The notes beneath the pieces are model-generated. The model made no database searches. It was given only the letters and a program-made list of their open reading frames with translations, and had not been told where the DNA came from. A stretch of 41,357 bases of DNA from a virus. Of the stretch, positions 1,429 through 41,357 are shown piece by piece; positions within the stretch are counted from its first letter, which is position 1; every line of letters starts with the position of its first letter. The stretch lies in the IMG/VR virus record IMGVR_UViG_3300027746_000041, positions 1-41,357 of that record; one strand, written 5' to 3'. The position numbers were made by a program, and so were the translations under genes.

Positions 1429-1447
1429 GTGTAAGACCGTCTTACAC
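1429..1447. repeat. 19-bp perfect palindrome, copy 1 of 3
   Basis: GTGTAAGACCGTCTTACAC: 9-bp arms around a single central base. It begins immediately after the TAA stop (1450-1448) of the gene at 1448-1906. The same palindrome occurs at 2635-2653 and 40342-40360, always between leftward genes. The symmetry and the one-base centre suit a dimeric repressor operator; as RNA it could also fold as a tight hairpin. Confidence 0.85.
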
Positions 1448-2634: not shown

Positions 2635-2653
2635 GTGTAAGACGGTCTTACAC
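2635..2653. repeat. 19-bp perfect palindrome, copy 2 of 3
   Basis: GTGTAAGACGGTCTTACAC, the same palindrome as at 1429-1447 with the complementary centre base. It lies 27 bp upstream of the GTG start at 2608 and beyond a terminator hairpin (2692-2713). That position suits an operator for the small gene at 2453-2608. Confidence 0.85.
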
Positions 2654-20695: not shown

Positions 20696-23600
20696 GTGGC
20701 TAGCGCAAATGATGAACTAGAGAAAAGATTGCGCAACATTCGTTCGGCTTCAAGCCTGAATGTTGCCCCATCAGAGAGTACGCAAACTTCTGTTTTGCGT
20801 AACGCTCAACTTGGTTTAAGGGATTACGGTATTGATTCAATTCGTAAGGCTCCATCTTTGTCAGAAAAGATTGCGCAAATTGCTTCCGGTGCACCACAAC
20901 CATCAAGGAACCCAGCCATTAGTGCAGCCCTGCTTCCACTCAAGGCACTAGGAACAGCGGGAAGAGTTCTGTCAACTCCGTTGTACGGAGTTATTTCTGG
21001 CATTCGAGAAACAGTAGACGCTTTGGATAATGATGCGAAGACAAAAGCGTCAATGAGTGATTTTACAAAACAGATGTTTAGTGAAGATTTTGGTTTTGGA
21101 ACCGCCTTCCCAATGAAGGGAAATGTTGGTCGTGCTATTGCTTTTGGTGTTGATTTAGGTCTGGACCCTGTTAACTGGGCAACTTTTGGTGGAACCATTC
21201 TGCCCAAGGTTGCTCTTAAGGGTGTTGCAGAGGTTGCAGGTAAAGAGGGTGCAGAGATACTTGTCCGCCAAATTCTTGGAAAGAACGTTGGCGGGCGTCA
21301 AGGCGCAGAGGCGTTGGCGGTTATTGTTGAAAAAGAATTGCGTACCGCCAATTTAGTTGAGGGTGCTGCCAAATTAAGTGACATGGAAATTGGAGACATT
21401 GTTGGTCGTGTTTATTCTCGTAACTGGTCTGCAATTCCAGAAGAGATTGCAAAAAAATATTCTATAAATCCTCCTGGAATTTATTATGCTGGTTCACGAT
21501 TCAGGGTTCCTGGTTCCAAAGTTATTGGAGAGTTTGGTCAAAGAGGTTTAATTGGTGGACGACTTTGGTTTGTTAACACCAGTGTTGGCAAAAAGATTGC
21601 CCGTGCTTTCATGCCCGGAAGAACGGCAGAAGTTGCTGCAAGCATGATGGGTAAAATTAATGTTCGTCAATTAAGAACAGAACTTCGTGCTGGACGACTT
21701 ACGGGCGAAGAAGCAGCAGCGGCAGTTGCTGCATTGGGTGTAGACCAAATGGGAAGAATGGCAAGAGGTGTTGTAAAATCTAAAGCAACAGAAATTCTTA
21801 AACCGTTTGTTGTTGGTGAAAAAATGGCAACGTTTGCTCACTCTGTTTCTCGATTAATGGAACAAGGTGGAGAAGAGTTGGCAAAGTCTGCTCCTGCAGC
21901 CGAACGTGAACTGGCACAAGAAATGACCGGAATCATGAAGAAATTTTATGGTGAAATTGAATCTGTCATGAAAACAATTGACCCAGAATTTGAGATTGGC
22001 AGTATTGATAGTTACTTTCCACACGTTCTTTCTGAACAGTCACAGGCTGCAGCAAATAACTTGGCAAACCCACGAAGCGAATTGATTCGTCAATATGCAA
22101 AATTTAAAGGTCACGACATTTCTGGTTCTTTTAAATCTAGAACTATTAAGGCTGGGCAACCATTTTTGGAAGAACTTGGTGGACCAAAAGAACTGTTACC
22201 TAATCAGGTTACGGTAATTGAGTTAAACAAAATTTCGCAAAAACTATTGGGTTTCCCAATGTTTGAAACTGATGCACGAAAAGTTTTGTTGCGTTATGCA
22301 GACCATTACGCATCCGCCATGGGCGATGCCGCAATGATGAGAGAGATGCTGTCTAAGCCGTACTTAATGGACACCATTAGAAAAGTAAACGGTATTGATG
22401 TTGATGTTTTGAATGCCCACAAAAAAGATGTTGCTAATTTGATTTCCAAAAAGATATCAACTGGAAAACAATTTTCTAGGTTGTTGCAAACAACCACTGA
22501 AAAATTGTTTGGAACATCGGAAAAAGTTGGTCAACTTCCAGCGTTGTTAGACACTTTGGAAAAAAAGGCAGCAAAACTTACTGGTGAATTAGATACACCT
22601 GAACAACTTGATGGTGCTCGCAAGATTATTGTAGATTTGTTTGAAGAACTTAAATCGGTGCATGCAGATTTTGTGGCACAAAGAGAAGTAACATCAAAAA
22701 CACTTGGCGAACAAGACGGAATTTTAAAACTTATTACGAAACAAGAGGCTGATGCTACTAAAGACTTTGAAGAAATTGGTCAAATTGTAAACAGGATTCT
22801 TGTTGATTCTTATGGTTATACCCCTGGAGCAACACTGGCAGACAATGCTGCACAATTGGTTCCAGATAAATTGGACCAAGTTATTGTTGACACTGCAACA
22901 AACAAAGCAGCAATGACCGAACAGTTGGCTAGCGTGAAATTTTTGATGGAAAAATTGCAAACAAAAGTTAACGACCTTGACAAGATGCAGGAACTTTATA
23001 ACGTTTTGGGCATGGGTGAGGGTTTGGAGAAAATCTTTAAAGATGCAATGGAAGCCGTAGATGGTGGAGATTTTGTAAACAATGTTTTGGATGGACTTGG
23101 TGTTCGTGGGGCACGAAAGAAATACACACGCACAACTAATGCTCAGGGAAAATTAACCGCTAATTGGGTTGATGATTTTTGGGGGCCTCGAGCACAGGCG
23201 CTCGATTCCAATGTTGCGTTGTTGAGAAACATGATTGACCCATATCAATCAATTTCTAGTTCTGCTCTTAAAAAAATGACAATTGGCGACGTGCGAACAA
23301 TTCTTTCTAAGTCAACCGTTGGCGTAGACAGGGTGGATGAGTTGCGCAGGGCTGTTGCTTGGTTGATAATTAGGGATACCCAGGCAAGCCCACAGGTTCT
23401 TTTAGATATAGCAACACTGCAGAGTAGCAAAGGAACTGCCAAGGTTTCTGCGACTGCCGAAAGATTTTGGAAACTAAAATCTTTGATGGAAAAGTCTGCA
23501 GAGATTTCCGAACACCTTAAGAAGTCAGCCTTAGAAGGAACGTTTAGCGGAAAACAATCTGAGTTGTTAAACGCAGAAATTGGAAATGCTGCTAGGGGTG

Positions 23601-26600
23601 GAAGAATACCGACAACTGCTCAACATCTTGAAAAAGCCATGGTTGAAAGAAATCAAGTTTTTGAAGACTTGCAAAGTGTTATTTCTGAAATAAGTTTCCA
23701 AGAAGGAATTACCCCCGGACAAAGTATTAGCGTGCTTGTTAATGATTTGCTGGACAGAAACCCTTTACAGTTAAATGAGGTAGTAAGCAATGGTGACATT
23801 GATTCTGTTCTGATTTCAATTCGTTCAAGCAAAAATACTACATTTAATGTTGAGCCACCGTCGTTTGGTCTTGAAGGAGACCGCATAGCAAACGAAGGTC
23901 TTTTTTCAGGAGACCTGTTGCAAACAGAAATTCCAGGCGTAATTGAATCTATGCGTGGAATAATGACCTACAAACAACTTAAAGATTTTGCTGAAGAATT
24001 GATGTTGGTTCAAGACGTACAATTTAAAGAAACTTTTACACAACTTAGACCAATTAAAGAATTGGTTGAATCTAGGGCAAATCTTACAGAAAGATTAAGC
24101 AACCTTGAAGAAAAGGTAATTCCAAGCATACGCAGAAACATGCTTCCTGTTCAAAAAGATGTCTACGAAATTATTTCAAATCAGGGTACGCAAGCAGATT
24201 TGATTAGAGAGTTTCAATCATCTCTTGACATATCAATGGTTGTTTCGGAAACAAACTTAAATTGGAATGCTCTAAATGCTGCACTTACTGACATAACTGG
24301 CTCAAGTAATCTTGTTGGTCTTGGGGACCAACAATATCAAGTTATGTTGGCTTTGAATGCCAAGGTTCATGCAGATGCATTGAGCGCATCAAATCGTTCA
24401 ATGCAAGAAGCAACCACATTGGTCGAAGAAATTCGAGACAGAGTTTTGGCTATGCCAGATAGGTCGCAACAACCAGAGGCTCTTGCGGGTGAAATGCGCA
24501 AATTGCTTGAGGGACCAAATGGATTAAAAATTAAAACTTACTTTCCAGAATTTGAAAAAATTCTAAGTGTTAAAAGGGCAACGGGAATTAAGAGTGCAGA
24601 ACTTGCTCACCCTGGTGTGGCACAAATAAGAGACGACCTTACAGACATTCTTGTTGATATATCTGTGCGTCCAGAAACTCCTGGTTTGTCCAGCACTATG
24701 AGGAGAACGGGAGACCCTCTTGATGGTGGAAACGAATTTCTTAAGAGTACTGCTGGGATTCCTTCGGAGGCTTCTCAGGAGGCAACAATTAGAAGTTCTG
24801 CTGGTTTGCAAAATGCAAAAACAATTATTGCCAAAATTAAAAAACAATTAGCAGAAGATATACCCACAGTTGCACGTGGTTCAAAGAAACTTGATTTAAG
24901 TGAATCGCAGTTAAAGACCGTAAGAAGAATTGAACAACAACTTGTTGCTGGCAAAGGAACAATGACTCCACTTGAGCAAAGAGAACTTGCTACACAAATT
25001 CTTGAAATTCAATATGGTGTTGATAATATTGTCCAACCATCTTACAGTTGGGCTGATGTTGACGCACAGGTAACTAAATACGAATCTGATTTACAAGAAC
25101 AATTGAAATTAATGAATGATGATTTGGCTACAGAAAAACGACGTGCTGCCTTGGCTGTTGAGGTGGGTGCTGCAACACGACCTGAAAGGTCAAGAACACG
25201 ACGAGCCAAAGATATTTTTGGTTTTGGAAGTTCGTTTAGTTCTGCAATAAAACCAAATAACAATAATTTTTATGTACGACGATTTTTTTCAGAAACAGTT
25301 GGTGGTGCCCCGATGTCGGTTGGCGACTCTGGGTTTAAGCGTCCGTGGAGCATATCTAATGTCACCACCGAAAATCGTCTTGCTGCGTCAATGAAAACAA
25401 ATACGTTGGCTAACTCTCAGGCTGGACGAGCACTACAGGCTGGTATTGAACGACGTTCAACCATGCTTGCTCTTGCTGACCCGCAATTGGCTAGAGTTTC
25501 TGCCGAAAACATTATAAATGGACTGGGAGACAGCAGCCCAATTTCTCCAGTTTTTCTTGCAGAGTCACTTGAACAACAAGTTCAAGTTTTAACAAACAAA
25601 TTAAAAGAAAATGAAAAGTTTAGAAGGCTTATTGCTAATGATGAAACTCTTTTAGCGCAACTTGACCAAAGACTTCCATATACCGAAGAACAAATAGCAT
25701 ATGTTAAAGAACTTGGATTTCTGGAACCAATTCAAACAAAAGCAGGATTACGAGTAAGACCGACAACGCCGGCTGAAGTAGCCAGGTTGTCGGAACAAGA
25801 AGCAATTGATTTAAAAGAATTGCGCCAACTTCGTCTTGTCTCCGCAAGACTCAGGAACGACCCACAGTACGCTATTGCGCAACAACAGAGGGCAAGGTTT
25901 GATATCCTTGATGTTTTGGCAAAGATTGACGGAGACAGGGTTGTCACAATGGATGGCACTCCGCAGTGGGGAACTCACTCGAGTTATCAAACTCATGTTT
26001 ATGGTGACCCACAATTTGAGCCACTTACCGATGATGTTTTGATTGAGCGTCTTCTTGGTGGTCGTGGTGGACGAGATGTTGAGTTGATGGGTCAAAACGT
26101 ATCTAAGAGACCGAGAAGCGAATCGGTTATTGCTGGTATTAGAAAATACGGCGAAGTTGAATGGGACTTCTTGCCAAGAGGAACATCAATTCATGCTGTA
26201 AAAATGGAACAAGTAGATTTTATTCCAGGCATGACAGACGCTGATTATGTTTTTGTTTCTGCTGATGGTTTGAGAATTAGTGCTGTTGAGGCACAACAGG
26301 CAGTTGGTTCTAGCCAACCAATTACTGTTTTGAAGCCAATAACTTCAGATGGTTCTCTTGGTGGTGCAAACAGGTTGCAAGAATTGTCTTTGCGCAAGGG
26401 TGAATCATTTACTCCAAAAGAAACTTGGCTTATTTCTCCTGCTGGTGAATACAGCATATATCAAAGAAACATTGCCGGTGGTACCCTTGGTGGACGTGGT
26501 GAGGGTGGTGCTATTCTTACCCTGCCTATTGAGCAGCCATCAAGAGTTGTTCAATATGTTCGTGGTGCAGAAGCAAACAACATTGTTGACTTTACAATGC

Positions 26601-29600
26601 CCAATGGTTCTCCTCTTGCGTTTAGCAAAGAGGAATGGGATTCTTTGTTTTTGCCAATTGCTCCCCATGAACGAACTTTGGTAAACATTGAAAAAGAATT
26701 TCTTGATGCAAAGAGCGATGAAGCATCGCTGCTTGCGTATCAGAGAACAAACGAATACAAAAAACTTTCCAAATCTGCACAAGTAAAACATCAGGTTGCA
26801 CGTGTAAGTGCAACAAATAGAAAACTTGCGCTTCGTGAACAGAGAAACGCAATGGCTAGACAGCCTTTGGATTCATACACATTTGCTCGTGTCCGTAGCG
26901 AAATTGCCAAGACACAGGAATACATTAATGGCTTGAAAACAAGACTTAGCGGACGGGGTGGCAATCTTCTTGACCAAACAGGAAGAACTAATGTTAAAGC
27001 AAAACTGGAAACGGCAAGCAGAAGAATGAATGAGTTGTTGGCTCATCAAAAGAAAATAACAGTATCTGGTACTGCTTCTGTAAAGATTGACCGACTTGTT
27101 GAACTTGCCGGTACGCCCGAGGTTGCAAGGGCTCTTGGAATAAAACCACAGGCTGACGGAACTTTTGATTCGTCAAAAGTTCTTAAAGCACTTGTAGAAA
27201 GAATGCAGGGTTCTGTTTCCAAAGATGGTAAACCCCTTGCTTCGTCTGCGGAAAGTGTTGCTAAAAGAGTTGCTGGGACAAAAGATGGTTGGGCGTTTAG
27301 TTCTGGAAAATCTTATATGGAAACTGTGAGTGCTGCAGATTCTGTTGTTCTTGGCGCAAATTACTTTAAAAGAATTAACGAAGAATTTGAACCAATTTTA
27401 ACTGAAATAACACGGGCAAGAAAAAGAATTGCAGAAATTAAGAGGGAACAATATAACGCTGTTGACCCGGTTGGATTTGCTGAAGATGTTGTTGGGTTGC
27501 AAACTGCTTCAAGAGAAGCAACAGATGTGTTGCGAGTTGGCGAAACTTCGCAGTTGCCAACTCCAAAATATGCAGCAGGTGATTCTGGGATGGGAGCGGT
27601 TCGTGCTTCTCAACGAAATGTTTCTCAAATGGAATCCGACATTAAGAAAATTAATCTTGAAATAAGGTCATTGAGCAAAGAAATTAACGACCTTGAAAGA
27701 AGGTCGTCAAGAACCGTAGGCGACATCCAAGAGGGATTGACCGTTGAGGGCGCAGACAGAATACAACGTCGTGCGGCTTTGCAGACACAAAAGAAAAATA
27801 TTCAACAACAAATCAAAGCAGAACTTGATTCGATTGATGATTATGCACAGTCAATTGTTGCAACACTAAGACCATCTGCTTCTGGTGAATCCCCAATGCT
27901 TGCAGATGCAACGGCTTTTATTCGTCTTGTGCGAGAAGTTAAACTTAAGACCAATTCATCTTCTGTTGTTGACGCAAAACAATTTAAAAAAGTTCTTGAA
28001 GATTTGGCTGCAGGTTTTGAGTCTGCAAGAAGCCAACAGGTAAAAGTTATGATGTTTAACGATGCAAAAGAAAACTTGAGAAACATATTGGTAAAGAGGA
28101 ATGAAGTTCTTAAAACAATTTCTAATTTGCCAGATAACAGTGCTGCAATTTTAAATGCGGAAGATACTTTGGCAAGAGCATTTGCTGGAACATCACAAGA
28201 TACGTTTACTCGTGAAGGTAAGTTAATAAAAGGTACTGCTCCGACATCTCCTGCTGGAAAGATGCTTGCAGATGCACAAAAGGCAATTGCTCCTATACGA
28301 AAAACAAAAACCAAACTTACAGACGCAACAGATGCGCTTCACAAGGCTGTTGTTATGTTTGACTATGCAGCATTTGATAACCTTACTTCTGCCAAAAAGT
28401 TGTCCGAAGTACAAGAAAGAATTAGTGCAGTTAAAATTTTAATGGACCAAAGCAGGAGTCTTGCTACACAGACACCAGAAACACTTGAGTGGAATAAGGC
28501 TGCACAAGAACTTCTTGATGAGGTAACCGTGTGGGGCAATTTTGCTTTTGCAGAAAATGGAAAAGTTGATAAAACTTTTTCTGATTGGGCTAAGCAATAC
28601 ATTGCGCTAAAGGCTGCTCACTTGGAAAGCACCGCTAACGCAGATGCTGCCAATATTCTTTTGCAAAAAGCAACGTCTTTGCATTTGGCTGCAAGCGGTT
28701 TCCCAACCGTTTTGCTTCCAGGTTTTGAAAGAGTTGAGTCGCTTCCCGAAGGTTGGGGTGCCATGATTTCAACCATGAAAGATGGTTGGGTGCACCTTGA
28801 TGCAGAAAGATTCCCAAACATTCAGGTTCATCCGGAACTTGCAAAACTGTACGAGAACGTCAACAGGATTCAATCTCCTTTAATGGCTCAAGAGTTGTCT
28901 AGGCTTATTGGTGGGTACACCAAGTTCTTCAAGGCATACGCAACATTGAGTCCTGGTTTTCATGTGAGGAACGCAATCTCCAACGCTGTGCAACATTTTG
29001 CTGGTGGTGGAGACCCAAGATATTTAATGGAGGGTTTGCAGGTTACAAATGCTTGGGGTCAGGCTTCGAGAAACGGCAAGTCTTGGGAGCAGTTCTTAAC
29101 TTCTCTTGCACCAGAGCAAGCCAAGCATGCACAGGTTGCTCGTGATTCGGTATTCGGTTCTGGCGGTGGTTTGTTTGAGTTCTTGTTTGATGGGATTCGT
29201 GGAAACAACAGAATGTCAAACAACTTTGTTGTTAACAAATCTAAATCAGCAGGACAAGCGTCAGACAACTTTTCAAGATTTCTTTTTGGTTATGACGCCT
29301 CCAAGCAGGGGCTTGGAGTCGAGCAAGCAACAGCACGAACTTCTCGTTTCTTTATTGATTACGAAGACATCTCCAGTGCTGATGAAATCATTCGTCAGAT
29401 TATCCCGTTTTGGATGTGGACATCAAGGAGTCTTCCAGTTCACATGATGAACATGTGGACAAACCCAAAGCCTTACGGTGTGTATCGTGCAATTAAGAGA
29501 AACCTTAAAGATGACAATGATGAGACTATTCTTCCAGAATACATGCAACTGTCTGGGGCGTTTAAGTTGCCGTTTGGAAACAACCTTTACGCAAACCCAG

Positions 29601-30070
29601 AATTTGGTTTCACCCAAATTGACAAACGTATTAACGATTTGGAAAACCCAAGGAAGTTATTGGGTGACATGAACCCATTACTGCGTGTTCCAATGGAACT
29701 CGCTGCTGGTAAAAGTTTCTTTAACAACAGACCGTTTAGTGAGAACCCTGTAAAGGTGTCTGGTGGTATTCAAAACATTCTTCAACCGTTGTTAGAACAA
29801 CTTGGTATGGGTAGCACTAATGCTGCTGGAGAAAAGTTTGTTCAAGATGACAAGTATTATGCTTTAAGAAACTTAATTCCATTTCTTGGAAGTTTGGAAA
29901 GACTATCCCCAACTGTTGATACAGAAAATCCAACAAACAATAATGCGCTTGCTGGTTGGCTCGGTTCACCAGTAAAAGAATACGGTGAGAACATGCAAGC
30001 AGCACAACTTAATAAACTAAAAGGACTTATTGCAAAAGAGGTCTCCAAGAACAAGGCGGTAAACGGATGA
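20696..30070 (+). CDS. Giant internal virion / DNA-ejection protein, 3124 aa (GTG start)
   Basis: One frame of 9.4 kb, about 23% of the genome. GTG at 20696 follows GAAGGG. The protein is mainly helical, with coiled coils (for example about residues 2305-2375). The C-terminal 450 residues contain segments known from large phage internal proteins: YATLSPGFHVRNAISNAVQ (near 2748), FFIDYEDIS (near 2885) and MWTSRSLPVHMMNMW (near 2906). It probably travels with the DNA, spans the envelope and may form the ejection channel, as in T7 gp16 or N4-type virions. I could not identify polymerase, transglycosylase or protease motifs with confidence. It overlaps the endolysin gene by ATGA. Confidence 0.75.
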   Translation: MASANDELEKRLRNIRSASSLNVAPSESTQTSVLRNAQLGLRDYGIDSIRKAPSLSEKIAQIASGAPQPSRNPAISAALLPLKALGTAGRVLSTPLYGVISGIRETVDALDNDAKTKASMSDFTKQMFSEDFGFGTAFPMKGNVGRAIAFGVDLGLDPVNWATFGGTILPKVALKGVAEVAGKEGAEILVRQILGKNVGGRQGAEALAVIVEKELRTANLVEGAAKLSDMEIGDIVGRVYSRNWSAIPEEIAKKYSINPPGIYYAGSRFRVPGSKVIGEFGQRGLIGGRLWFVNTSVGKKIARAFMPGRTAEVAASMMGKINVRQLRTELRAGRLTGEEAAAAVAALGVDQMGRMARGVVKSKATEILKPFVVGEKMATFAHSVSRLMEQGGEELAKSAPAAERELAQEMTGIMKKFYGEIESVMKTIDPEFEIGSIDSYFPHVLSEQSQAAANNLANPRSELIRQYAKFKGHDISGSFKSRTIKAGQPFLEELGGPKELLPNQVTVIELNKISQKLLGFPMFETDARKVLLRYADHYASAMGDAAMMREMLSKPYLMDTIRKVNGIDVDVLNAHKKDVANLISKKISTGKQFSRLLQTTTEKLFGTSEKVGQLPALLDTLEKKAAKLTGELDTPEQLDGARKIIVDLFEELKSVHADFVAQREVTSKTLGEQDGILKLITKQEADATKDFEEIGQIVNRILVDSYGYTPGATLADNAAQLVPDKLDQVIVDTATNKAAMTEQLASVKFLMEKLQTKVNDLDKMQELYNVLGMGEGLEKIFKDAMEAVDGGDFVNNVLDGLGVRGARKKYTRTTNAQGKLTANWVDDFWGPRAQALDSNVALLRNMIDPYQSISSSALKKMTIGDVRTILSKSTVGVDRVDELRRAVAWLIIRDTQASPQVLLDIATLQSSKGTAKVSATAERFWKLKSLMEKSAEISEHLKKSALEGTFSGKQSELLNAEIGNAARGGRIPTTAQHLEKAMVERNQVFEDLQSVISEISFQEGITPGQSISVLVNDLLDRNPLQLNEVVSNGDIDSVLISIRSSKNTTFNVEPPSFGLEGDRIANEGLFSGDLLQTEIPGVIESMRGIMTYKQLKDFAEELMLVQDVQFKETFTQLRPIKELVESRANLTERLSNLEEKVIPSIRRNMLPVQKDVYEIISNQGTQADLIREFQSSLDISMVVSETNLNWNALNAALTDITGSSNLVGLGDQQYQVMLALNAKVHADALSASNRSMQEATTLVEEIRDRVLAMPDRSQQPEALAGEMRKLLEGPNGLKIKTYFPEFEKILSVKRATGIKSAELAHPGVAQIRDDLTDILVDISVRPETPGLSSTMRRTGDPLDGGNEFLKSTAGIPSEASQEATIRSSAGLQNAKTIIAKIKKQLAEDIPTVARGSKKLDLSESQLKTVRRIEQQLVAGKGTMTPLEQRELATQILEIQYGVDNIVQPSYSWADVDAQVTKYESDLQEQLKLMNDDLATEKRRAALAVEVGAATRPERSRTRRAKDIFGFGSSFSSAIKPNNNNFYVRRFFSETVGGAPMSVGDSGFKRPWSISNVTTENRLAASMKTNTLANSQAGRALQAGIERRSTMLALADPQLARVSAENIINGLGDSSPISPVFLAESLEQQVQVLTNKLKENEKFRRLIANDETLLAQLDQRLPYTEEQIAYVKELGFLEPIQTKAGLRVRPTTPAEVARLSEQEAIDLKELRQLRLVSARLRNDPQYAIAQQQRARFDILDVLAKIDGDRVVTMDGTPQWGTHSSYQTHVYGDPQFEPLTDDVLIERLLGGRGGRDVELMGQNVSKRPRSESVIAGIRKYGEVEWDFLPRGTSIHAVKMEQVDFIPGMTDADYVFVSADGLRISAVEAQQAVGSSQPITVLKPITSDGSLGGANRLQELSLRKGESFTPKETWLISPAGEYSIYQRNIAGGTLGGRGEGGAILTLPIEQPSRVVQYVRGAEANNIVDFTMPNGSPLAFSKEEWDSLFLPIAPHERTLVNIEKEFLDAKSDEASLLAYQRTNEYKKLSKSAQVKHQVARVSATNRKLALREQRNAMARQPLDSYTFARVRSEIAKTQEYINGLKTRLSGRGGNLLDQTGRTNVKAKLETASRRMNELLAHQKKITVSGTASVKIDRLVELAGTPEVARALGIKPQADGTFDSSKVLKALVERMQGSVSKDGKPLASSAESVAKRVAGTKDGWAFSSGKSYMETVSAADSVVLGANYFKRINEEFEPILTEITRARKRIAEIKREQYNAVDPVGFAEDVVGLQTASREATDVLRVGETSQLPTPKYAAGDSGMGAVRASQRNVSQMESDIKKINLEIRSLSKEINDLERRSSRTVGDIQEGLTVEGADRIQRRAALQTQKKNIQQQIKAELDSIDDYAQSIVATLRPSASGESPMLADATAFIRLVREVKLKTNSSSVVDAKQFKKVLEDLAAGFESARSQQVKVMMFNDAKENLRNILVKRNEVLKTISNLPDNSAAILNAEDTLARAFAGTSQDTFTREGKLIKGTAPTSPAGKMLADAQKAIAPIRKTKTKLTDATDALHKAVVMFDYAAFDNLTSAKKLSEVQERISAVKILMDQSRSLATQTPETLEWNKAAQELLDEVTVWGNFAFAENGKVDKTFSDWAKQYIALKAAHLESTANADAANILLQKATSLHLAASGFPTVLLPGFERVESLPEGWGAMISTMKDGWVHLDAERFPNIQVHPELAKLYENVNRIQSPLMAQELSRLIGGYTKFFKAYATLSPGFHVRNAISNAVQHFAGGGDPRYLMEGLQVTNAWGQASRNGKSWEQFLTSLAPEQAKHAQVARDSVFGSGGGLFEFLFDGIRGNNRMSNNFVVNKSKSAGQASDNFSRFLFGYDASKQGLGVEQATARTSRFFIDYEDISSADEIIRQIIPFWMWTSRSLPVHMMNMWTNPKPYGVYRAIKRNLKDDNDETILPEYMQLSGAFKLPFGNNLYANPEFGFTQIDKRINDLENPRKLLGDMNPLLRVPMELAAGKSFFNNRPFSENPVKVSGGIQNILQPLLEQLGMGSTNAAGEKFVQDDKYYALRNLIPFLGSLERLSPTVDTENPTNNNALAGWLGSPVKEYGENMQAAQLNKLKGLIAKEVSKNKAVNG

Positions 30071-31128: not shown

Positions 31129-31297
31129 GTTTTTTTTTCCTTTTCTTATTAGCAACATATATGAACCCGTAGGGCATACCGTTTTCCGATACTCCTTGAC
31201 CCACAGTAACGTCGCCGTAATGCGCTGCAAGAATTTTAGCAACCGTTTGCGGACTAACCTCAACATCAAAACCCACTGTTATCTGTCTTGTCGTCAA
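31121..31297 (-). CDS. Hypothetical small protein, 58 aa (TTG start, easily missed)
   Basis: TTG at 31297-31295 follows GAGAGAGG with a seven-base spacer, an excellent site. The product begins MTTRQITVGFDVEVSPQTVA and continues KILAAHYGDVTVG, ending in a basic tail (KKRKKKHV). The sequence looks like a compact alpha/beta domain with a nuclear-like Lys cluster at the end. It overlaps the end of the sigma-like gene by 32 bases and the start of the next gene by 8 bases, which fills an otherwise empty part of this tight operon. Confidence 0.65.
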   Translation of the reverse strand: MTTRQITVGFDVEVSPQTVAKILAAHYGDVTVGQGVSENGMPYGFIYVANKKRKKKHV

Positions 31298-31562
31298 GGT
31301 TAAGCCTCTCTCTAATTATTGGATGTTTGATAAGAATTGATTGTAGTCGTTCGTATGCAGAGTTTCTCAGACGCCAGGCGTGTGTTTTCGTGACACCAAG
31401 GCGTTCACCAAGTTCCTGCAAAGACACCATTTCTGAGTTAAGTGCATCAATGATAAACCTATCTTGTTCTCCTAGTTGCTCTATACAAGAAGCAATGGCT
31501 TCTCGTAATGGTTGCAATTCTTGAACAGACTCAATAGTTGCTTCACCAACACCAGCCATCAT
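31266..31562 (-). CDS. Sigma-70 region 4-like HTH protein, 98 aa
   Basis: Residues about 31-75 (EQDRFIIDALNSEMVSLQEL, then GERLGVTKTHAWRLRNSAYERL) match the region 4 helix-turn-helix of sigma factors. The pattern includes a D/E-x-x-FI helix and the GVTKTHAWRL recognition helix. Regions 2 and 3 are missing, so it is probably a small transcription regulator that binds promoter DNA or RNA polymerase. I chose the ATG at 31562 (GGAAG upstream). The frame is open to a TTG at 31604, which would sit inside a hairpin (31597-31617) and lacks a site; an ATG at 31574 is another option. Confidence 0.75.
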   Translation of the reverse strand: MMAGVGEATIESVQELQPLREAIASCIEQLGEQDRFIIDALNSEMVSLQELGERLGVTKTHAWRLRNSAYERLQSILIKHPIIRERLNLDDKTDNSGF

Positions 31563-31596
31563 TAGGGCTTCCATTGGCGTTTCAGGTCGTCTCCCA

Positions 31597-31617
31597 CCAC
31601 GCAACGTACTTGCGTGG
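31597..31617 (-). terminator. Hairpin between nuclease and sigma-like genes
   Basis: CCACGCAA (31597-31604) and TTGCGTGG (31610-31617) form an 8-bp stem around a 5-nt loop, about 20 bases after the stop at 31639. There is no T tract. It could terminate, attenuate or mark a processing point before the sigma-like gene. Confidence 0.5.
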
Positions 31618-35785: not shown

Positions 35786-36196
35786 TTAAAGATTCCACGG
35801 ACCCCAGCCGTTTCCGTATATTTCGTTTCCGTAGCCATAAATCTCCAAAGCCGACTTAAGTGCCACCTCGGGGTTGAACAGCCCCTCAGAACGCTTTAGG
35901 ACGCCCCTAGAACGAAGCCACGGAGTCCAGAACCCGTTGATTTGCATAAGACCCCTAGACCCACCGTTTGGGTCTTTCGGATTGAACGCTGATGCATCGC
36001 ATCGGCTTTCACGCCACATCAAAAAATCTAATGTGACCAGGTTCTTGCGTAACCATCCAACAGATACAGCCGTGTCCCACCATTGGGGACACTTAGCAGT
36101 CATTGGTGGTTTCACTGACGGGTACTCGAATGCGGAAGTGGGGGGCACGAAGCCCCCCACGATTACAGATAATGAAATTAATATTTTTGCTATCAA
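35786..36196 (-). CDS. Secreted lysozyme-like lytic transglycosylase, 136 aa (TTG start)
   Basis: A signal peptide (residues about 1-22, MIAKILISLSVIVGGF, then PPTSA) precedes a compact SLT-type domain. The domain has LMWRESRCDASAFNPKDPNG (catalytic E63) and SRGLMQINGFW (80-90). It cuts glycan strands of peptidoglycan after export. The start is TTG with GGGGAG five bases upstream, overlapping the previous stop as TTGA. It is encoded in the leftward arm, apart from the M15 endolysin and the holins. The DNA of the signal region itself forms a 9-bp GC hairpin (36138-36160). Confidence 0.82.
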   Translation of the reverse strand: MIAKILISLSVIVGGFVPPTSAFEYPSVKPPMTAKCPQWWDTAVSVGWLRKNLVTLDFLMWRESRCDASAFNPKDPNGGSRGLMQINGFWTPWLRSRGVLKRSEGLFNPEVALKSALEIYGYGNEIYGNGWGPWNL

Positions 36197-37090: not shown

Positions 37091-37352
37091 TTGGCTTCCT
37101 TCCTCTTTTTCTATTTGGTATTCCATTGCGTAGAGTAATGCCACCCCAAATACCGTATGACTTTGTGTCAATACCATATTCGAGACATTCTACTTTTACT
37201 GGGCAGGTAGAACAAATACGTTTTGCCTGCATAGCACCACTACCTGGGTCCCCCAATTCGGGGAACCACAGGTTATGAGGATGACCTAAACAACTACCTC
37301 TCGTAGCGTATTCTGCTTTGTTTATGTCAAGTACGAATTTGAACTCAGACAT
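37053..37352 (-). CDS. whiB: WhiB-family Fe-S transcription regulator, 99 aa
   Basis: The four cluster cysteines are C21, C47, C50 and C56 (GSCLGHP, then RICSTCPVKVEC). They are followed by the family turn YGIWGG (66-71) and a basic C-terminal stretch NRKRGRKPN that would contact DNA. WhiB proteins bind the sigma-A region 4 of actinobacterial RNA polymerase through a [4Fe-4S] cluster. A phage copy likely alters host or phage promoter use. The ATG at 37352 follows GAGG inside the end of the upstream gene. Confidence 0.92.
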   Translation of the reverse strand: MSEFKFVLDINKAEYATRGSCLGHPHNLWFPELGDPGSGAMQAKRICSTCPVKVECLEYGIDTKSYGIWGGITLRNGIPNRKRGRKPNANKAELGVQSL

Positions 37353-37845
37353 CCAACCTCGCATTGAGACGAGTTTGAATGAGTGTAACTGCACGCTCTG
37401 ATGCATCGTTCACAACATTGAGCATTGCGGTGTTGACCGCCTCTTGAACCAATGACGTGATACTCACATTTGTCATGTATGTATCTACAGCACCACGCAC
37501 AACATTTCTGAAGCGTGTTGTGTCAGTAAGTGTACGGATAAACCTATCCGTAGACAAAGCATTCTCCAACATCTCTGCATCTATGTACTCTGCCGAGCGC
37601 ATAGCAATGTCACCGAAGTCAATGGACTCAATCGCCCAGTCACGGATGCGACGGAGAAAGTTTGAGTTGTCAATAACATTTTCAACGGTGTTCTCCATGA
37701 TTGTTTCCTGTAGCCCAATCATGTTTGCGTCCACACGCTGATGAACCATAGTTTCCACAGACTCATCAAACAAACCACTGAGGCTTGATGGGTCAATGCG
37801 TACATCTAAGTCCATTGTTGATGGAACCAATCTAATTGTTGTCAT
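37345..37845 (-). CDS. Hypothetical protein, 166 aa
   Basis: An acidic protein of regular amphipathic helices with repeated units about 20 residues long (FLRRIRDWAIESIDFGDIAM, RFIRTLTDTTRFRNVVRGAV, SITSLVQEAVNTAMLNVVND). It may be a helical repeat or coiled-coil scaffold. No family recognised. It overlaps the upstream gene as ATGA and WhiB at its end. Confidence 0.7.
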   Translation of the reverse strand: MTTIRLVPSTMDLDVRIDPSSLSGLFDESVETMVHQRVDANMIGLQETIMENTVENVIDNSNFLRRIRDWAIESIDFGDIAMRSAEYIDAEMLENALSTDRFIRTLTDTTRFRNVVRGAVDTYMTNVSITSLVQEAVNTAMLNVVNDASERAVTLIQTRLNARLDV

Positions 37846-38066: not shown

Positions 38067-38096
38067 TTCTGTGGGGGCTTGCGCCCCCACGGTTGT
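38067..38096 (-). repeat. Intergenic hairpin repeat, copy 1 (GNRA loop)
   Basis: A 30-bp sequence identical to 39126-39155. Its core (38071-38090) is an 8-bp stem, GTGGGGGC/GCCCCCAC, with loop GCAA on the minus strand, a stable GNRA tetraloop. It follows the amidotransferase stop (38101) and is followed at once by AGAAGG, the ribosome binding site of the next gene. Termination, mRNA protection or processing are all possible. Confidence 0.8.
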
Positions 38097-38100
38097 GTGT

Positions 38101-39111
38101 TTAGTAATAACTTGGATGAGTTGTTGTGTACGTTTCTTTGATGGACATTGGCATTGGTATTGGCTCTTGCTCAACTTCTGCAATCATCTCAACACCCTCC
38201 AATGCGTCCCAACAGGTGCAACCGTAATCCGAACCACAGAACAAACATGCACTGCAAGCATTGCAATGCGTTTGTAAACAGTTCACATCACTGGTTGTTT
38301 CTGATGCAGCACATGAGTAGCACTCAATGAGCACTCCACCTGCACCGATGTCGGTCATGAACACTTGAAACTGCTCTAAGCATTTATCCAATTCATCTGC
38401 TTCTAGCAATCCCGCTTCATCGTCGTAGTCTTCAGTCGCTACATGAACACCACTAGTGGAACTGGAATAGCCAGAGTACGACTTGTAGCCGTAATCCCAA
38501 CTGTCGCTCCAACCAATAGCATCGCTGTATGGTCGTGTTGAATATACGATGGGTGCATGCTTGTATGAACTATTGGACCACCACATATCTGAGTCCCAAT
38601 GACCATCTTTCTCGTTGATGATGTACCAATCAAACTTGGCTTCATCATGAACGGTAAGAAACGCCAACTTAGAACCAGCAGCCCACAGGGCTAACTTGGC
38701 AAAGTAGTCGTTGTCATCAAGCGATGTGATGCCACCAATACCTGGCATGACATCCTCTGCAAACACTCTCGAGTCTGAACGCTTGTCACCTTTCGGTATC
38801 GCAACAGGAAGTATCCCGTTGTGCGCCATAACTGAACTGGGGTCGTCACCGAGTGCAAACGGATGACAGTTATCTAATGTCTCCGCACCGTGAGTAGCCC
38901 AACGAAAGTGGAACAGAGCAGGACCCTTGTTGGTGGCACGCAAGTCGGTAAACTTGTTTGCCACTTCTTCAAAGTTCATGCTGTGAGCCTTGATGATTTT
39001 TTTGCCTGTTGATATTGCGAAACCAAATCCGTCAGGGTTGTTCAGGGATGCAATACGAAATCGCTCCATGTCCGGTGTGACGTAATCTGGAATCATTGTT
39101 AGCAAACACAT
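38101..39111 (-). CDS. Class II glutamine amidotransferase with Cys-rich C-terminal module, 336 aa
   Basis: The Ntn-hydrolase domain is clear. Cys2 becomes the N-terminal nucleophile after Met removal, with FHFRWATHG (67-75), NCHPF (81-85) and MAHNGIL (95-101) as the conserved glutamine-binding motifs. It releases ammonia from glutamine for a partner. The C-terminal 100 residues add a Tyr/Ser-rich linker and a cluster of nine cysteines (264-300, for example ECYSC, HCNACSACLFC, GCTCW), a probable zinc or metal module not usual for this family. The upstream neighbour is an amidoligase, the natural acceptor of the ammonia. Confidence 0.85.
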   Translation of the reverse strand: MCLLTMIPDYVTPDMERFRIASLNNPDGFGFAISTGKKIIKAHSMNFEEVANKFTDLRATNKGPALFHFRWATHGAETLDNCHPFALGDDPSSVMAHNGILPVAIPKGDKRSDSRVFAEDVMPGIGGITSLDDNDYFAKLALWAAGSKLAFLTVHDEAKFDWYIINEKDGHWDSDMWWSNSSYKHAPIVYSTRPYSDAIGWSDSWDYGYKSYSGYSSSTSGVHVATEDYDDEAGLLEADELDKCLEQFQVFMTDIGAGGVLIECYSCAASETTSDVNCLQTHCNACSACLFCGSDYGCTCWDALEGVEMIAEVEQEPIPMPMSIKETYTTTHPSYY

Positions 39112-39125
39112 ATGTTATGTGTCCT

Positions 39126-39155
39126 TTCTGTGGGGGCTTGCGCCCCCACGGTTGT
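39126..39155 (-). repeat. Intergenic hairpin repeat, copy 2 (GNRA loop)
   Basis: Identical over 30 bases to 38067-38096; the stem is at 39130-39149. It lies eight or so bases after the amidoligase stop (39164) and directly before AGAAAGGA, the ribosome binding site of the amidotransferase gene. The two copies therefore flank the amidotransferase gene exactly. Confidence 0.8.
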
Positions 39156-39163
39156 TTGTATGT

Positions 39164-40243
39164 TTAAAAGTCTTCACCCAACATCGCACCACAACGCTCT
39201 GTGATACGAGTGTCAAGCACTTCGTACTTATCTATACGGTTACGCACCCACTTGCGGAACGACATAAACGCCAAAGCGTTATTGCCAACAACTTCCTTAG
39301 TGCTGAGCATATCTGTGTAATCAAAGGATGCTTTGCAGAATTGCAATGCAGCCTGAACGGTAGTCACATTGAGTGACGGTCTGAAGAAACGCAACTCAAC
39401 AGTATTGGCGTTCTGTATGTTGATTGCACAGTAACGGTCATTGTTTGTGTCGCGGTCCTTGAGCATGCTCATCAAAGATTTCTGACTGCGTGTGCCCGTG
39501 TCGTAATCCATCCACGAACTAACAAAGTTGTCTAAGCCAAACTTCGCATAGGACGACTCACGTCCAACGAACTTGACCAAGTCAACACGATTAGAGTAGA
39601 TGAACTTCACAAACTTGAACAGATGCTTGTCATCTGCGAAAGCATTGCGAGACATGTGAACATGCAAGCCACAAGAACTTGCGTTCCATGACTCAAAGCC
39701 CATACCCTTGAGTGCTGTGATACCAGCCCAATTCAGATGGTTCATTGCATAGTCAATCGTCATCGGATGCGAAACAATCTCGAATCCGTTGCTGATTGAA
39801 CCATCTTCTTTGAGGTACACAACATCCTCGGTCGAACCCGAGTTCATTGAGGCAAGAACTTTGATTGCACCATCACGACGACTGAACGAACGATGATTAC
39901 GGTACTCAACCTCTTGCTCAAACCCGAGATACAACTCAGGTCTGCCTGTACCGTCAGCATTCACGCTGGACATTGAGGCATACCTTGATGCTGTACCATC
40001 AGAATTGAGAAACGACGGACGAGGTCTGTATGAATAAGAATGAACTAATCCATTCTCACTGTTGTCCTCCTCGTCTTCTGGGTTGTTTTCTTCCCACTCG
40101 GCTTCAAACTGACGGTGACAATCTAAACAACGCTGATTGTCGTAACTGTCGTACTCGCTGCCGTGTGAGTTGTCATCATTGATGATGTCGTCACAGTCGT
40201 GACACTCCCAACCTGGCTCCTCTTCTTGATTTATAATTGGCAT
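39164..40243 (-). CDS. Amidoligase (glutamine synthetase-fold, Amidoligase_2-like) with N-terminal zinc ribbon, 359 aa
   Basis: The amidoligase signature is LGFEQEVEYR (106-115), DGSISNGFEIVSHP (147-160), CGLHVHMSRN (191-200) and RYCAINIQN with TVELRFFRPSLN (270-292). It would use ATP to join a carboxylate to an amine, most likely ammonia from the adjacent amidotransferase. A zinc ribbon with C14, C17, C39 and C42 and a very acidic linker (about 46-65) precede the enzyme domain. The substrate is unknown; cell-wall or protein carboxylates are proposed for the family. The ATG at 40243 has AGAGG; a frame to 40291 is longer without a site. Confidence 0.85.
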   Translation of the reverse strand: MPIINQEEEPGWECHDCDDIINDDNSHGSEYDSYDNQRCLDCHRQFEAEWEENNPEDEEDNSENGLVHSYSYRPRPSFLNSDGTASRYASMSSVNADGTGRPELYLGFEQEVEYRNHRSFSRRDGAIKVLASMNSGSTEDVVYLKEDGSISNGFEIVSHPMTIDYAMNHLNWAGITALKGMGFESWNASSCGLHVHMSRNAFADDKHLFKFVKFIYSNRVDLVKFVGRESSYAKFGLDNFVSSWMDYDTGTRSQKSLMSMLKDRDTNNDRYCAINIQNANTVELRFFRPSLNVTTVQAALQFCKASFDYTDMLSTKEVVGNNALAFMSFRKWVRNRIDKYEVLDTRITERCGAMLGEDF

Positions 40244-40292
40244 TACCAACCTCTTTCTGTTTATGTGTACGCATGTATGGAAGTCCCACACA

Positions 40293-40332
40293 TGACCGAG
40301 AACGCACTAGCAAACCAATGCGCTCTCGGTCA
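40293..40332 (-). promoter_or_regulatory. Long stem-loop upstream of the amidoligase gene
   Basis: TGACCGAGA (40293-40301) pairs with TCTCGGTCA (40324-40332), extended by three pairs after one mismatch, around a 14-nt loop. It lies between the amidoligase start (40243) and the 19-bp palindrome. It may terminate the upstream operon, which ends at 40430, or act in the leader. Confidence 0.6.
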
Positions 40333-40341
40333 CGGGCTAAA

Positions 40342-40360
40342 GTGTAAGACCGTCTTACAC
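40342..40360. repeat. 19-bp perfect palindrome, copy 3 of 3
   Basis: GTGTAAGACCGTCTTACAC, identical to 1429-1447. It lies about 100 bp upstream of the amidoligase start. A GGTAT-CAGT-ATACC palindrome (40375-40388), preceded by the same CCGGG as at 795-799, is next to it. The amidoligase/amidotransferase unit thus shares this putative operator with small left-arm genes. Confidence 0.85.
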
Positions 40361-40374
40361 TCCAACCTGCGCCG

Positions 40375-40388
40375 GGTATCAGTATACC
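40375..40388. promoter_or_regulatory. GGTAT-N4-ATACC palindrome
   Basis: GGTATCAGTATACC resembles GGTATCGGTTGATACC at 798-813 in its arms and in the preceding CCGGG. It is a possible second operator type in the leftward control regions. Confidence 0.45.
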
Positions 40389-40848: not shown

Positions 40849-41114
40849 TTTGTTCGTACCTTTCTTGCAATAATGGAATAATTATTTTCACCAATATGAA
40901 GAGCCCACTCAATTTGAGTGTATTCTTCGTATGATATTCGGAAGTTGCATGTTCTTACAGACATTTTCTTTCTGTCTGCTTTTGTCTTTGTTTCTGAAGA
41001 ACAGATGATTACCCATTGGTCCAACAATCCAAATTCCATAATTTCTAGAACTTTTTCCTTTGTCCCAATTTTTCGTATGCACAATACTGGGTTGTCTATG
41101 TATTCTAATGTCAC
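40845..41114 (-). CDS. Hypothetical protein, 89 aa (GTG start)
   Basis: A mixed alpha/beta-looking protein (VLCIRKIGTKEKVLEIMEFG, DQWVIICSSETKTK, then CNFRISYEEYTQIEWALHIG). No family recognised. The start is GTG here and ATG in the duplicate at 84-86, due to one base difference in the terminal repeat. AGGAG lies upstream, and stop-start overlaps join it to both neighbours. Confidence 0.72.
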   Translation of the reverse strand: MTLEYIDNPVLCIRKIGTKEKVLEIMEFGLLDQWVIICSSETKTKADRKKMSVRTCNFRISYEEYTQIEWALHIGENNYSIIARKVRTK

Positions 41115-41357
41115 TTTGTTTCTCCTATGTTTGTATTTGGGTATAACGGATGTGGACTAATCAACGCTGAACGAATCAACATATTATCTCTAATCCACTT
41201 TTTCTTTAGGATTTCCCCAAGTGCCCTTTGGTCTCTTGCGAGCATGAAGTATCCATTGTTTTTTTGTTCACATATCTCGTAATATTCTTTTTTGTTGACA
41301 CAAACACCACCAATAAGCCTTATCATCTCACCTTCCTTGAGACCATACCAAGCCATA
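41029..41357. repeat. Terminal direct repeat, right copy
   Basis: Matches 1-329 without gaps, with five substitutions. Two of them change amino acids conservatively (Glu to Asp and Val to Ile in the gene at 41111-41357), two are silent in the affected genes, and one turns the ATG of the following gene into GTG. The pattern looks like natural variation between sampled genomes. Confidence 0.9.
41111..41357 (-). CDS. Hypothetical protein, 5' end cut by window edge (duplicate of 83-382)
   Basis: The C-terminal 81 or so residues of the protein complete at 83-382. The true start lies beyond the window and, in a circular genome, corresponds to 382. The in-frame Met at the edge is internal. Its stop overlaps the GTG of the next gene. 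It should not be counted as a separate gene. Confidence 0.75.
   Translation of the reverse strand, partial: MAWYGLKEGEMIRLIGGVCVNKKEYYEICEQKNNGYFMLARDQRALGEILKKKWIRDNMLIRSALISPHPLYPNTNIGETK

Follow-up and report, generated by a model that had tools for sequence, protein, structure and literature searches.

Known amidoligase–amidotransferase systems

Phage amidoligase cassettes have reportedly been noted since 2009, with the claim of host wall alteration repeated, and Iyer et al. 2009 is said to be the source cited for a role in wall modification or superinfection exclusion. The pairing of an amidoligase with an amidotransferase is already known from many phages. In the cassettes of phiEco32/LUZ24/RIO-1-like podoviruses, an amidoligase and a glutamine amidotransferase lie, as in the locus described here, in the early/replication region; these cassettes also hold an ATP-grasp protein, a gamma-glutamyl cyclotransferase and a COOH-NH2 ligase (PMC5498523). 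One paper interprets the amidotransferase-like protein of the larger cassettes as an enzyme of degradation (PMC5498523). For such cassettes, three papers suggest wall modification or superinfection exclusion (PMC5498523, PMC10580990, PMC11318856), and none of them reports a direct test of that role.

The OM43 phages MEP401 and MEP402 carry a two-gene unit in which, as here, the amidoligase precedes the amidotransferase and bears a zinc ribbon; their genes have overlapping frames, and their amidotransferase ends in another C-terminal domain, which lacks the cysteine module described below (PMC10580990). In mycobacteriophage Marvin (Marvinvirus, cluster S), gp105 and gp106 are likewise an adjacent amidoligase and amidotransferase in the same order, with a zinc ribbon on the former and the same eight-cysteine pattern on the latter, and the Marvin amidotransferase is 39% identical to the present one over the first 187 aa. 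Unlike the present pair, gp105 has a long C-terminal extension, the TTHPSYY tail is missing, and Marvin is a different type of phage. In its presumed working and on sequence grounds, the unit described here belongs with those of Marvin and the OM43 phages. New are its occurrence in an uncultivated, probably actinobacterial, phage group, all checkable members of which have it, and a conserved eight-cysteine module common to this group and Marvin.

The locus and its genomic context

Both genes come from a 41,357-bp IMG/VR virus record, which is the window analyzed here at its full length. The record encodes TerL, portal, scaffold and major head proteins, together with a DnaB-like helicase, an AEP-type primase, RusA, a PD-(D/E)XK nuclease and WhiB, the last of which we take to point to an actinobacterial host. 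Both the amidoligase and the amidotransferase gene are encoded on the minus strand; the DNA replication genes follow downstream in the same direction. The features of the unit are as follows.

39164..40243, minus strand: amidoligase gene, 359 aa, GS-fold (Amidoligase_2, PF12224), by profile, alignment and predicted fold
40118..40204, minus strand: N-terminal zinc ribbon of the amidoligase, C14-x2-C17 ... C39-x2-C42, codons 14-42
38101..39111, minus strand: class II glutamine amidotransferase gene, 336 aa, with Cys2 as nucleophile after Met removal
38557..39111, minus strand: Ntn glutaminase domain of the amidotransferase, codons 1-185, by alignment and predicted fold
38212..38322, minus strand: eight-cysteine module of the amidotransferase, C-x2-C-x15-C-x2-C-x2-C-x2-C-x5-C-x-C, codons 264-300
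38104..38127, minus strand: C-terminal tail TTTHPSYY of the amidotransferase, codons 329-336, kept in many relatives

The record ends in a near-direct terminal repeat (positions 1-329 and 41029-41357), whose two copies agree at 324 of 329 bases; a true terminal repeat would not be expected to differ at five positions, and these differences may stem from assembly or from variation in the population. A DNA-level search of the phage collection gave no match, and neither did an Rfam scan or a tRNA scan.

The amidotransferase

The amidotransferase reading frame runs from an ATG at 39111 to a stop codon at 38101-38103. Against the Pfam families GATase_4 and GATase_6 the protein remained below the cut-off (E 0.001 and 0.009; 18.4 vs 23), and a related protein from a Paludibacteraceae genome (L105) exceeded both cut-offs. 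The protein matched PHROG 25883 (E 3e-35), a profile built from its relatives matched the glutaminase domain of GlmS (E 5e-4), and a Foldseek search with the predicted model, whose Ntn domain has a pLDDT of mostly 85-96, returned 1xff (E 2e-7) as well as PurF and EgtC. The PHROG, profile and fold matches together settle the class II (Ntn) amidotransferase identity proposed in the preliminary description, and the catalytic set is complete. Residues C2, R70, W71, T73, H74, N98, G99 and D113 are invariant among 28-29 aligned relatives, and the R-W-A-T-H-G and H-N-G motifs align to GlmS. The GlmS and PurF glutaminase domains share the fold, the Cys nucleophile at residue 2, the R-W-T-H and N-G motifs and a later Asp; unlike these enzymes, the phage protein has no fused synthase domain and instead continues into a Tyr/Ser/Gly-rich linker and the cysteine module. 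The TTTHPSYY tail is probably selected as a peptide, because codon changes among relatives are synonymous.

The amidoligase

The amidoligase frame extends from an ATG at 40243 to a stop codon at 39164-39166; a GTG start at 40291 is less likely, since relatives begin with MPxxxEE. The protein matched Pfam Amidoligase_2 above the cut-off (E 4e-8, 33.8 bits, cut-off 22), and a search of the whole record recovered the same match. Residues E109/E111, K145, D147, E155, H194/H196, R270, N275 and E283/R285 are invariant among 28 relatives. They include the full GS-type series of metal/ATP residues (E-x-E, a later Glu, H-x-H, R and E-x-R), whose roles we assume by motif analogy to glutamine synthetase. 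The AlphaFold2 model (pLDDT 82) has a predicted GS/GCS fold: Foldseek returned YbdK (E 5e-6) along with glutamine synthetase, Dop, glutamate-cysteine ligase and GmaS, with good E-values and modest TM-scores of only 0.3-0.4. Profile, fold and residues thus bear out the amidoligase assignment made earlier from the sequence.

Compared with the relative L044, both genes are under purifying selection (dN/dS about 0.14 and 0.24). Because the catalytic residues are invariant in 28-29 relatives, both enzymes are most likely active.

A second, shorter amidoligase that lacks the ribbon and has E-x-E, H-x-H and E-x-R intact was observed upstream of the pair in some genomes, at the following positions.

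L003:3145-3957: second amidoligase
L009:3134-3940: second amidoligase
L016:3632-4447: second amidoligase
L024:3617-4423: second amidoligase
L028:3742-4392: second amidoligase

Its conserved GEQQ end was considered as a signal and dropped, as its codons may at the same time form the next ribosome-binding site.

Cysteine module and zinc ribbon

The cluster at residues 264-300 of the amidotransferase had first been described as one of nine cysteines; nine are indeed present, and the conserved set is eight, with C278 variable. The pattern C-x2-C-x(10-16)-C-x2-C-x2-C-x2-C-x(4-8)-C-x-C was found in 47 sequences, and further Marvin-like and divergent relatives have it too. In 100,000 shuffles of the amidotransferase tail it arose 0 times. 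With a dN/dS of 0.11 (vs L044), the module is under constraint equal to that on the catalytic domain. It is specific to the phage group of this record and Marvin-like phages, being absent from the MEP402 lineage, ctgrD200, C75C1 and the Bacteroidales pair.

The spacing resembles the RING/cross-brace pattern C-x2-C-x9-39-C-x1-3-C/H-x2-3-C-x2-C-x4-48-C-x2-C at every position except the last, where the final pair is C-x-C, unlike the C-x2-C of that pattern. A profile search returned a single RING chain at E 0.34, and the module is modeled with a pLDDT of about 70-77. Searches against Pfam and PDB profiles gave scattered single matches in which no family recurs and no binding function is identified; no known domain was accordingly assigned to the module.

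The four amidoligase cysteines C14, C17, C39 and C42 are exactly where they had been claimed to be. The ribbon is the fastest-evolving part of the amidoligase, and its last ligand is Cys or His among relatives. Nearly every phage amidoligase examined has the ribbon, whether or not the partner bears a cysteine cluster: in L051 and its relatives, L052 and L054, the amidoligase has the ribbon and the amidotransferase is without the cluster, and the L105 pair has neither. The two modules thus do not form a matched pair, and the proposal that they dock to each other was abandoned as a general rule. Each module may handle substrate or assembly on its own.

Conservation of the pair

An amidoligase adjoins the amidotransferase in all 46 viral (IMG/VR) relatives of the latter, several of these loci being near-duplicates, and the distance is usually within 100 bases. 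In a DnaB-seeded collection of contigs, which is independent of selection on the pair, both genes were detected in 30 of the 30 contigs with enough upstream sequence, at identities down to 30-33%. The pair was also found in Marvinvirus, in ctgrD200 and in a human gut contig; in MEP402 and IMG/VR metagenomic relatives its reading frames overlap, and in a Bacteroidales prophage-like region it lies beside a terminase-like ORF. The expectation that homologues occur together is thus borne out across several unrelated lineages of phages, with either gene first, and the linkage is therefore most likely functional, beyond inherited synteny.

Variant arrangements were observed. In the Paludibacteraceae genome (L105:5778-7290), a bare pair with neither cysteine module sits amid the structural genes of a prophage-like region. 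A Marvin-like contig (L109:124-2200) has the reversed order, with the amidotransferase first, and its amidoligase carries several zinc-finger-like repeats. In phage C75C1 (L056:5001-5894), the amidotransferase-like domain carries a fused gamma-glutamyl cyclotransferase (GGACT) domain in place of the cysteine module.

The window and 14 related records of 38-51 kb were searched for two other components of the larger cassettes. GGACT (PF06094) was found in 0 of these 15 records, the control for this search matching in 9 of 14 genomes; ATP-grasp_4 (PF13535), the sole ATP-grasp profile used, also matched 0 of 15. Since GGACT is missing and the ATP-grasp_4 profile found nothing, the unit was not filed under the peptidoglycan modification cassettes.

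A lysozyme-like gene (35786-36196; SLT_3 and SLT above the Pfam cut-off) with a signal-peptide-like start was noted in the same gene row as the pair. It is undetected in divergent relatives: lysozyme-like and WhiB genes were undetected in 8 of the 30 DnaB-seeded genomes with the pair, so a link between the pair and the lysozyme-like gene was considered weak and set aside.

Possible function

We lean slightly towards a two-component, glutamine-dependent amidoligase, in which ammonia released by the Ntn protein would be joined as an amide by its ATP-using GS-fold partner. The Ntn protein, with its complete catalytic set, would split glutamine to ammonia; the ammonia would pass to the ligase; and the ligase, with its predicted fold and metal/ATP residues, would use ATP to activate a target carboxylate and join the ammonia to it as an amide. 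The zinc ribbon and the eight-cysteine module would probably act as substrate-handling or scaffold domains.

The chief competing reading, which we consider rather unlikely, is gamma-glutamyl chemistry in which the Ntn protein is an EgtC-like hydrolase. The ligase would link an amine to glutamate or to a glutamyl peptide, or else a non-ammonia amine to a carboxylate, and the Ntn protein would trim or reverse the product in an add-and-remove or exchange cycle. The predicted folds leave room for this reading: that of the amidoligase also fits ligases of non-ammonia amines, its neighbours including YbdK, glutamate-cysteine ligase and the gamma-glutamyl-methylamide synthetase GmaS, and that of the amidotransferase is also compatible with a gamma-glutamyl hydrolase like EgtC. 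A gamma-glutamyl cyclotransferase is present in, or fused into, related phage units, and some genomes of the group have the second, ribbon-less amidoligase. However, the GlmS and PurF glutaminase domains are closer to the Ntn protein by both fold and sequence, and neither GGACT nor ATP-grasp_4 was detected in the record or its 14 relatives.

Alternatively, the pair might act on a protein or on nucleic acid and not on the wall, for instance in early host takeover or in the protection of a phage macromolecule, with the zinc modules recognizing the target. Zinc ribbons often serve to bind nucleic acids or proteins, the pair lies upstream of the replication genes in the same direction, and the cysteine module is constrained like the catalytic domain; yet no profile or PDB match gives that module a binding function, and the ribbon, evolving faster than the rest of the amidoligase, is missing from other pairs. 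We regard this reading as improbable. Nutrient salvage, in which host glutamine or wall peptides would be processed and their nitrogen recycled during infection with no specific target, seems very improbable: one paper does read the cassette as recycling host material (PMC5498523), but an ATP-consuming ligase fits salvage poorly, and genes so constantly paired, with conserved add-on modules, point to a specific product. That the two genes are chance neighbours acting separately is equally hard to credit, for although Bifidobacterium phage BP742P1 has a GATase-like gene with no amidoligase detected nearby and Clostridioides phage AR1086-1 an amidoligase with no GATase detected nearby (in the stretches examined), the pair is adjacent in several unrelated lineages, with overlapping reading frames and in both gene orders.

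The pair is found in unrelated phages, some with Gram-positive and some with Gram-negative hosts. The leading guess at a target for the glutamine-dependent amidoligase, though itself judged rather unlikely, is therefore a carboxylate that many bacteria share, for example a carboxyl of the peptidoglycan stem peptide. A bolder and distinctly less probable version is that the cysteine module, as an undescribed two-metal domain, would act with the ribbon to target a glutamine-fed amidation complex to one host or phage macromolecule early in infection. If true, the module-targeted complex would be a phage-encoded protein or cell-wall amidation system in the core genes of uncultivated, probably actinobacterial phages. 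The unit is here cut down to two genes that every checkable group member has, and Marvin gp105/gp106 in M. smegmatis is a cultivable counterpart of the same architecture; the old wall question is therefore directly testable in a minimal system.

Palindromes, hairpins and other features

The following elements were located around the unit and near the other genome end.

40342..40360, no strand assigned: 19-bp perfect palindrome GTGTAAGACCGTCTTACAC, about 100 bp upstream of the amidoligase start
1429..1447, no strand assigned: second copy of the same 19-bp palindrome
2635..2653, no strand assigned: third copy, with G as the central base
40293..40332, no strand assigned: imperfect inverted repeat TGACCGAGAACGCA / TGCGCTCTCGGTCA in the amidoligase leader, identified by eye, with the arm cores located
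39128..39151, minus strand: GC hairpin with a GCAA loop, directly 5' of the amidotransferase ribosome-binding site
38069..38092, minus strand: the same hairpin, directly 5' of the next gene's ribosome-binding site

The palindrome upstream of the amidoligase is real, but it is not the unit's own, as the preliminary description had it: with three copies in the record, each preceding a minus-strand unit near one or the other genome end, it was discarded as a unit-specific element. The copy at 40342-40360 is probably an operator. L007 and L045 have an AGAC-N-GTCT core at about -2.4 and -1.9 kb; in many other relatives the neighbourhood of the amidoligase gene holds palindromes with other sequences. 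The similar-distance sites and the differing palindromes suggest an operator with lineage-specific specificity. The palindrome thus looks like an operator common to several early units, or a hairpin element, whose sequence is lineage-specific. Near the other palindrome copies, no convincing Pfam match to a repressor gene was obtained. The GC hairpins described as flanking the amidotransferase gene are present and identical, and are not specific to the function of the unit, because relatives have swapped them for other hairpins or lost them.

Downstream of the pair, a conserved gene (37345-37845) has no family match and gives no hint of the substrate. A 3124-aa ORF at 20696-30070 is without a convincing family match, and the region 31266-31604 is weakly similar to RNA polymerase sigma factors (PHROG 351, E 3e-5).
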